Shown piece after piece: positions 20,337 to 22,326 of a DNA stretch of 42,392 nucleotides (the first letter of the stretch is position 1; each line of letters begins with the position of its first letter). The notes beneath the pieces were generated by a model, which was not told the DNA's origin, did not search any database, and was given only the letters and a program-made list of their open reading frames with translations. A program made the translations under genes and the position numbers. The stretch comes from Acidobacteriaceae bacterium (GTDB taxonomy: Bacteria; Acidobacteriota; Terriglobia; Terriglobales; Acidobacteriaceae): contig JASHQQ010000404.1 in assembly GCA_030039035.1 (NCBI GenBank), forward strand, positions 1-42,392, written 5' to 3'.

Positions 20337-20550
20337 GCAAAACTCCTGGGATGAGAATACGCGAATGGGGACGAAGAATCGGGGCGGAAGCAGCCCCATG
20401 GAGGGGGCGGTGGTGAACGGACTCAAAAACCGCTACACTCGAAACAAGCTCTAAAGCCGGGACCGGCGAGGATACATGAACTCAAAAGGGCAATACCGGC
20501 AAAAGGGCCGGAATAATAAATCCCTATATAGTGTAGGTGGAAGGTCGCAG

Positions 20551-21258
20551 ATGGGCGAGCCGGAAGCCATTGACGACAAGATCGAGTTGAGCGAGGGCGA
20601 GCCGCATCCCGCCGAAATGCTCGCGAGCTTGCTCAAGGGCGAAAGCGGCGCGGCCCGGTGGCCGATTGGCTCTGCGCAGGCGACAGGGGAGGAAACCGCG
20701 GCGACGCAGCCTGCGCCTTCGGCGCCGCCGCCGGCGCGGATGGAAACTCCCCGAATCGAGGAAGTACCGCCCGCGGCGCGCGCCCTGGCCGCCCAACACG
20801 CCGACGAAACCGCGCAGGAACTCTCCGGCCTGCTGCGCACCATCCGGGCATTCCGTTCGGCCCTGCCCCTCGTTCAGCGTTTGTTGCCCCTTCTGGACGG
20901 CAACGTGGTCGCCGCAATCACCAACGTGCTGGCACCACGACCGCAGGCTGCGCCGGCCCAGAAGCCGGTCGACATGGCTCCCATGGAAAGCAGTCTGGCC
21001 GAGCTGAAAGCGCAGCATCAGGAACTGCGCAACCGGGTGCAGGAACAGGGCACATCGATGCAGCGCATCACCGATCAGATGGAGCGCGTGCGCGAGCTGA
21101 CGGACCGCAACAGCGACGAGCTCGAGGAACTGGTCGAGGAGCTCAAGGCTGCCGGGAAGAAGATGAACATTGTGGCCTTTCTCGCGTTCGCGCTGCTGGC
21201 GGCATCGATTGCGCTGAATGTTGTCCTCTACCTCCAGTTCCATCACCTGATGCCGTAG
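20551..21258 (+). CDS. Tail-anchored coiled-coil protein
   Basis: The 235-residue product has an acidic N terminus, a Pro/Ala linker, a helix around LLRTIRAFRSALPLVQRLLPLL, a long heptad coiled coil (about 125-205, LAELKAQHQELRNRVQEQGT and VRELTDRNSDELEELVEEL) and one C-terminal TM helix (VAFLAFALLAASIALNVVLY), so it is tail-anchored with most of its mass in the cytoplasm. GGAAGG lies five bases before the ATG at 20551; an ATG at 20476 with GAGG is an alternative, but that first stretch is unusually AT-rich. A -10-like TACACT lies at 20434. I do not recognise the family. It lies before the GvpL/F gene. Confidence 0.75.
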   Translation: MGEPEAIDDKIELSEGEPHPAEMLASLLKGESGAARWPIGSAQATGEETAATQPAPSAPPPARMETPRIEEVPPAARALAAQHADETAQELSGLLRTIRAFRSALPLVQRLLPLLDGNVVAAITNVLAPRPQAAPAQKPVDMAPMESSLAELKAQHQELRNRVQEQGTSMQRITDQMERVRELTDRNSDELEELVEELKAAGKKMNIVAFLAFALLAASIALNVVLYLQFHHLMP

Positions 21259-21270
21259 CTCCCGGTTTTG

Positions 21271-21291
21271 ATGGGAACGCCCCGTCTTTTT
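21271..21291 (+). terminator. Weak intrinsic terminator candidate
   Basis: A five-pair stem ATGGG/CCCGT around AACGC is followed by CTTTTT, just after the tail-anchored gene. Short stem, so low certainty. Confidence 0.35.
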
Positions 21292-21374: not shown

Positions 21375-21404
21375 TTGCCAGCCGTATTTTCGCAGGGCTA
21401 GTAT
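21375..21404 (+). promoter_or_regulatory. Sigma-70-like promoter candidate for GvpL/F gene
   Basis: TTGCCA (21375-21380) and TAGTAT (21399-21404) are 18 bases apart, close to the -35/-10 pair. Transcription would start near 21411, giving a leader of about 120 bases before the ATG at 21532. Confidence 0.4.
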
Positions 21405-21407
21405 TCC

Positions 21408-21458
21408 GCATAGTTCAACCGGGTAAAGCCACTCACCCGGCTCTCAAATCCGCTATGC
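21408..21458 (+). ncRNA. Structured leader candidate upstream of GvpL/F
   Basis: An outer stem GCATAG (21408-21413) pairs with CTATGC (21453-21458), enclosing an inner stem CCGGGT (21419-21424) and ACCCGG (21435-21440) with a ten-base loop AAAGCCACTC. The joining strands are TTCAA and CTCTCAAATCCG. Two nested stems in 51 bases right after a promoter candidate look like a folded regulatory leader. I could not match it to a named riboswitch class. Confidence 0.35.
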
Positions 21459-21531
21459 AGTTGTTCCCAAGTTCACAGAGCTTTACCAACGAAGCGGCGC
21501 TTACCGGCGCGCGCAGATGGAGCGTCTCGCC

Positions 21532-22326
21532 ATGGCATGGTATGCCTACTGCATCGGTGAAAAACAGGCTTTTCCGGAACTGGCCCGACATCGCAAACCC
21601 GTTCCGATGGAATCAGTCGTCGGAGTCAGCGGCAATCAGGTTTTTCTTTACCCGGCAAGCGATTTGGCCATTATCGTAAGCGAACACAATCCCCACGAAG
21701 CATTGAGCCAGAAGGCCGGCGTGGATCACGCGAGGGTGATTGCCGACTGCTTTCAGCACTCCACCGTTCTTCCCTTCCGGTTCGGAACCATCTTCAACGA
21801 CGACGAGAGCCTGCGGAAGTCGATCCGCTCCAATCAGCGGCAGTTCCTGTGCAATATCGACAAGCTGCGCGGCAAGACCGAAATGCACCTCAAGATCCTG
21901 GTCGACGACTGTTGCGGCAGGGAGCTGGAGCGCCATTGGCCGGCCGAGGGCGTGGGCCGCGAGTACCTGTCGAACCTGCGCGAAAATGCGGCGCGGCAGC
22001 GCGAGCGGCAAACACGCGCGCGCGCGGTGGCCTTCCAGATGCACCGGCTGTTCCTGCCCCTGGACGAGGAAGTAAGCTGCCGGCTGACCGAGAGCGGAAA
22101 GATGGCGCTCGACATCGCGCACCTGATCGATCGCAAATACGTGGAACGGTATCAGAACAAGTTCGCCACCACCAGCGCGATGATGAAAGACTGCGCGCTG
22201 CAGCTCTCCGGGCCGTGGCCTCCCTATCACTTCGTGCACCGGCTCACGCGGGGAACGCATCCGCATCCGGCGGCGGCGCAGGCGCCGGCCGTGCGCGTCC
22301 CGGAGGCGGTGGGGGCGATGGCGTAG
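21532..22326 (+). CDS. Orphan GvpL/GvpF-family protein
   Basis: The 264-residue product opens MAWYAYCIGEKQAF and has the GvpL/F marks HSTVLPFRFGTIFNDDESLR (about residues 80-100), FLCNIDKLRGKTEMHLKI, and the C-terminal LQLSGPWPPYHFVH. In gas-vesicle makers these proteins help assemble the vesicle shell. No gvpA or other gvp gene is in the window. The start at 21532 is preceded by GGAGCG; the ATG at 21517 has no ribosome site. The last 20 residues are Ala/Pro-rich. The gene follows a possible structured leader and ends in a heptamer tract. Confidence 0.88.
   Translation: MAWYAYCIGEKQAFPELARHRKPVPMESVVGVSGNQVFLYPASDLAIIVSEHNPHEALSQKAGVDHARVIADCFQHSTVLPFRFGTIFNDDESLRKSIRSNQRQFLCNIDKLRGKTEMHLKILVDDCCGRELERHWPAEGVGREYLSNLRENAARQRERQTRARAVAFQMHRLFLPLDEEVSCRLTESGKMALDIAHLIDRKYVERYQNKFATTSAMMKDCALQLSGPWPPYHFVHRLTRGTHPHPAAAQAPAVRVPEAVGAMA

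Follow-up and report, generated by a model that had tools for sequence, protein, structure and literature searches.

The orphan gvpL/F gene of this Acidobacteriaceae bacterium is preceded by a promoter that sequence comparison indicates is strongly conserved across the family, and by a predicted leader in which comparison of relatives points to selection for two separate hairpins, one near the 5′ end and one directly before the Shine-Dalgarno sequence (SD). In our judgement there is about an even chance that the dedicated promoter and the two-hairpin leader of about 120 nt act together to tune the lifetime and translation of the orphan gvpL/F mRNA. These features lie within a stretch of 42,392 nt, here called the window, in which an earlier note had drawn two nested stems immediately after a candidate promoter. 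Half of that nested structure, the inner stem, holds when relatives are compared, and the other half, the outer stem, does not; the hairpin that these comparisons support best, the one before the SD, had been missed in the first reading. The features are as follows:

21375..21404, + strand: promoter, with −35 box TTGCCA (21375-21380), an 18-nt spacer with conserved CGT and G, and −10 box TAGTAT (21399-21404)
21408-21413 and 21453-21458, + strand: outer stem GCATAG/CTATGC, not supported as an RNA helix
21412, + strand: predicted transcription start A, 8 nt after the −10 box
21419..21440, + strand: 5′-proximal hairpin CCGGGT-AAAGCCACTC-ACCCGG, arms 21419-21424 and 21435-21440, 7 nt from the predicted 5′ end
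21455..21467, + strand: conserved linker motif ATGCAGTTGTTCC
21494..21514, + strand: pre-SD hairpin GCGGCGCT-TACC-GGCGC-(G)-CGC, directly before the SD
21519..21522, + strand: Shine-Dalgarno GGAG, read from the sequence and invariant in the 22 sequences of alignment A1
21532..22326, + strand: gvpL/F gene, with the start taken as ATG 21532 (ATG 21517 is also in frame)

The product of the gene matches PF06386 over the full length of the profile (positions 1-245 of 245; 174.3 bits against a curated cut-off of 23.6, E 5.7e-51). It is the only copy in its own 5.9-Mb assembly, and a search for GvpA-type proteins (PF00741) found no match in that genome, the assembly being 85.8% complete. The description of the gene as an orphan thus stands for this assembly, and with no GvpA-type match in its own genome the gene does not appear as a member of a gas vesicle gene cluster. 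A GvpL/F homologue is present in 289 of 300 sampled Acidobacteriaceae genomes and a GvpA-type protein in 23 of 100, so most GvpL/F genes of the family are unlikely to serve gas vesicles; the near-universal orphan GvpL/F of Acidobacteriaceae probably has a role other than gas vesicles. No homologue occurs in the 14 genomes of the one other sampled family of the order, and the named relatives are Acidobacteriaceae. Our literature search found no paper on the leader of gvpL/F or on the orphan gene in Acidobacteriaceae; PMC11445434 concerns gas vesicle assembly.

A terminator-like stem followed by a T-run (21270-21286) lies just 3′ of the upstream gene, and gvpL/F is therefore probably its own transcription unit. 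The upstream gene (20476-21258) yields only sub-threshold Pfam matches, to a condensation domain and a coiled-coil family, and by eye has a hydrophobic C-terminal segment. Elsewhere in the family, two gvpL/F loci with leaders (L052 and L079) come from a single assembly, JASHRF01, and two leader matches also occur in genome G310; either case may reflect a duplicated locus or a mixed bin.

Of all parts of the region, sequence comparison finds the promoter to be the most deeply conserved. The TTGCCA-18-TAGTAT candidate proposed earlier agrees with the consensus at 9 of 12 positions and is the one promoter-like site between 21200 and 21700, where shuffles average 0.4. A search of its own genome that tolerated up to 3 mismatches found it once. 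A looser exact pattern is found in 6 of 100 family genomes, with one match each and all six just 5′ of a gvpL/F homologue, while the same pattern read backwards, as a control, gave 1 match. The general pattern (a TTGC-type box 18-19 nt before TA..AT) is present in 107 of 119 further loci, mostly from other genera, 11 being without it and 1 cut off. Besides the boxes, whose TTGC and TA..AT positions were forced by selection of the sequences, the spacer CGT and G are conserved in 136 non-redundant promoters. These spacer bases (CGT at 21383-21385 and G at 21395-21396) may constitute an operator for some regulator. The base 8 nt 3′ of the −10 box is a purine in 130 of the 136 non-redundant leaders, as against 38 one base before and 84 one base after, and we therefore predict a start at A21412, within the 5′ arm of the outer stem.

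Conservation of this depth raises the possibility that selection acts mainly on DNA, preserving promoter and operator and giving little weight to the leader hairpins. The folding of the leader as a whole is consistent with such a view: for the stretch 21375-21531, 74 of 200 shuffles fold as well as the native sequence (z −0.26), whole leaders across 81 relatives have a mean z of −0.15, and a separate whole-leader fold gives z −0.25. Constraint on DNA gives no account, however, of hairpin arms that covary while their sequence turns over, and we regard this explanation as quite unlikely.

The comparison of hairpin arms draws on upstream DNA from 110 loci, 109 of which provide at least 150 nt (L085 is too short). 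L071 has no recognisable promoter start; merging identical stretches left 85, and 81 remained after length and N filters. Groups A, B, C and D were set by hand, and alignment A1 comprises 22 sequences, without L094 and L041, which had earlier been in group A. A covariance model built from 22 relatives and searched against 84 loci returned 65 matches, giving a 65-sequence alignment that was thinned to 62 rows. The tree-aware null is our own imitation of R-scape and not R-scape itself. Because a model-made alignment leans towards its own structure, we used an alignment-free arm-swap test, in which the fit of a leader's two arms to each other is compared with that of arms exchanged between leaders; the tested sets (50, 49, 69 and 57 of 73 non-redundant leaders) are those in which the anchors were found.

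Taken by itself, the 51-nt element described earlier does fold into the drawn structure (−14.2 kcal/mol), better than all but 4 of 200 shuffles (z −2.65), and both of its stems are perfect 6-nt inverted repeats at the positions listed above; it is in relatives that the outer one fails. The covariation that had been proposed as a check on both stems is accordingly divided, the inner stem passing and the outer failing in the rank and arm-swap tests. Two pairs of the inner hairpin come first and second among the 7503 column pairs of the structure-fitted alignment (tree-aware p about 1e-4 or less), and in the arm-swap test 0 of 1000 permutations are as good (z −4.0, n = 49). Its loop AAAGCCACTC, with 5 purines among 10 bases, is not the purine-rich loop of the original description. 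Pairs of the outer stem show no covariation (p 0.20-0.70 per pair; tree-aware null, model-made alignment), one pair is unpaired in up to 28 of 64 rows, and 107 of 1000 permutations are as good (z −1.2, n = 50). The stem also straddles the predicted start, 4 of the 6 bases of its 5′ arm lying upstream of A21412, so that most of this arm should be absent from the RNA. We reject GCATAG/CTATGC as a helix on these grounds.

For the pre-SD hairpin the arm-swap test gives z −6.2, with 0 of 1000 permutations as good (n = 69). It is paired in 95.4% of the cells of the model-made alignment, and two of its pairs rank 5 and 17 of 7503 (structure-wise E 0.10 and 0.24). Plain MAFFT alignments of the window's relatives, scanned pair-blind for covariation, gave nothing convincing; the two hairpins of these relatives become visible only with model-aligned arms or by alignment-free comparison. 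A few clades seem to be without one of the two.

Local structure was also scanned in 36-nt segments over 136 non-redundant leaders (53 near relatives and 83 others, divided by locus number up to L098, so that some loci of other genera sit in the near group). The clearest minima fall at +1, with a mean z of −0.74 in near relatives and −0.95 in the others, and in the segment ending at the SD, with −1.67 and −0.81, respectively. Values elsewhere are shallower, down to about −0.6, and belong mostly to segments that overlap these two minima; the pre-SD segment of 18 other genes in the stretch, which served as control, gives +0.19. Over the first 45 nt, in an overlapping set, 31 leaders from more distant genomes have a mean z of −1.9, compared with −0.56 for the other 63. 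The first hairpin would lie close to the 5′ end of the mRNA, 7 nt from a predicted +1 at which the 136 leaders have a structure minimum. Of 36 genomes of the same genus, 34 have a leader of the window's own type; none of 24 genomes from outside the family has one. Among cultured relatives, Occallatibacter savannae AB23 (locus L074) is one that has the leader.

What could a leader of this kind do? As the earlier note had supposed, it matches no known riboswitch class, Rfam having no family for the window or for 20 related loci. A metabolite-binding riboswitch of a new class might be suggested by a conserved, covarying 5′ leader that is tied to one gene and finds no match in Rfam, yet the structures are simple hairpins with no complex conserved core, and the one gene they precede belongs to no known pathway. 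Nor is an expression platform seen: the leader contains no terminator-like site, and the accessibility of the SD does not differ from that in shuffled leaders (0.33 versus 0.29, higher in 50 of 94). Since accessibility equals that of shuffles, no on/off switch is visible, and sequestration or opening of the SD was rejected for the same reason. We see no sign of a ligand-binding riboswitch and nothing in support of one, and a new riboswitch class is very improbable. The broader suggestion of an undescribed cis-regulatory RNA survives in part, borne out by the promoter, the inner hairpin and the lack of an Rfam match, and not by the outer stem that was drawn for it.

The distance between the 51-nt element and ATG 21532 is 73 nt, close to the 70 or so bases first estimated. 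The linker motif ATGCAGTTGTTCC occurs within 4 substitutions in 67 of 136 leaders, compared with 6.7 expected in shuffles. It is explained neither by pairing with a supported partner nor by a conserved ORF. One fold suggested that the linker's AUGCAGU pairs with ACUGCAU of the coding region; this was discarded, as a leader's own partner does no better than a swapped one (z +0.8). Discarded as well were a linker helix AAGTTC/GAGCTT, which shows no covariation (arm-swap z +1.2, 900 of 1000, n = 57), and an alternative pairing GGTAAAGC/GCTTTACC, which by inspection is gone from most relatives. Control of gvpL/F by translation of an upstream ORF from ATG 21455 would draw on the start codon that stands at the motif in 50 of the 67 motif-bearing leaders (43 ATG, 7 GTG). 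Such ORFs, however, vary in length from 1 codon to 74 and more and occupy all three frames relative to gvpL/F (36, 8 and 6), and no SD is seen before ATG 21455 in the window. With neither length nor frame conserved, this ORF was rejected, and we hold control by its translation to be extremely improbable.

Leaders from other genera often carry a longer version of the 5′ hairpin, GGUNCAG ... CGNGCCAG, both sides of which have a bulged A. Twenty-six such sequences, aligned with plain MAFFT (alignment A3), contain 44 double-change pairing cells, where shuffles have 18.0 and slid controls no more than 13, and structure pairs take the first three places among 780 column pairs (structure-wise E 0.007 to 0.023); this covariation is valid for the chosen set, because the 26 were hand-picked from 43 motif-like sequences among 84 non-redundant leaders. 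A model of the bulged form finds 37 places in 150 family genomes, adjacency to gvpL/F being judged by comparing positions with those of homologue genes. The best 14 of the 37 (E up to 3.5e-5) all precede gvpL/F, 13 of these 14 having been used in model building; the remaining 23 have weak E-values (2e-4 to 0.05), with 3 before gvpL/F and 20 elsewhere. The model has no match in the window or in its own genome, and the window's genus is without the bulged motif. Equating the window's simpler hairpin with this element rests on position, promoter and gene, not on sequence.

These observations bear on the more interesting rival, a protein-binding role, according to which the hairpins would be sites for an RNA-binding protein, possibly GvpL/F, that represses or stabilises its own mRNA. 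Two observations favour such a site, namely that unpaired bases and closing pairs stay fixed in the 5′ hairpin of other genera (GGUNCAG, CGNGCCAG and the bulged A's) and that the strongest model matches lie before gvpL/F; the lack of the bulged motif in the window's genus, where the model misses the window's own genome, speaks against it, and we know of no RNA-binding role of GvpL/F. We consider this reading unlikely. Its extension to a family-wide undescribed cis RNA, composed of the bulged 5′ hairpin and the pre-SD hairpin and bound by a dedicated protein, perhaps GvpL/F, is distinctly improbable; if true, a former gas-vesicle assembly protein would now be RNA-linked and self-regulated in bacteria mostly without gas vesicles.

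Our preferred reading remains that of a leader tuning mRNA lifetime and translation. RppH and RNase E require a single-stranded 5′ end, and mRNA is therefore stabilised by secondary structure there (PMC3997798); structure beside the SD can shape ribosome standby binding (PMC3936740). On this reading, a dedicated sigma-70-type promoter would drive the orphan gvpL/F as its own unit, and the mRNA, beginning at about A21412, would carry its two hairpins separately, at 21419-21440 and 21494-21514. The 5′ hairpin would hinder 5′-end-dependent decay of the RppH and RNase E type, the pre-SD hairpin would set ribosome access or standby binding, and the leader would thereby tune for how long and how efficiently the gvpL/F mRNA is translated. 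Effects of the 5′ hairpin on mRNA lifetime and of the pre-SD hairpin on ribosome access appear to be the most likely roles of the two structures. By the measure of known stabilising stems, seven unpaired 5′ bases exceed the optimum, which counts against the 5′ hairpin as a stabiliser. Also unfavourable to the preferred reading are the shuffle-like folding of whole leaders, the shuffle-like accessibility of the SD, the unconvincing outcome of the pair-blind scan and the few clades that seem short of one hairpin. The dedicated promoter and the conserved two-hairpin leader imply that expression of the orphan gvpL/F is under selection, and the start site, the two hairpins and the one linker motif offer a concrete handle on when and why it is made.

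Several known systems resemble this leader. With the 5′-terminal stabilising stem-loops of Escherichia coli ompA and papA it has in common a long leader, an SD region set apart from the first hairpin, and the predicted closeness of that hairpin to the 5′ end; unlike them, the window has a predicted seven unpaired bases first, the hairpin of other genera is bulged and has fixed bases, and stabilisation is putative. The hairpin directly 5′ of the SD in a long leader recalls structured ribosome standby sites, a likeness that here derives from position and covariation only. Finally, a conserved, covarying leader of one gene family with no Rfam match is similar to the candidate RNA motifs of comparative genomics. 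It differs from them in its small size, in having been found, within the genomes sampled, in a single bacterial family, and in consisting of simple hairpins in place of a complex, aptamer-like fold.
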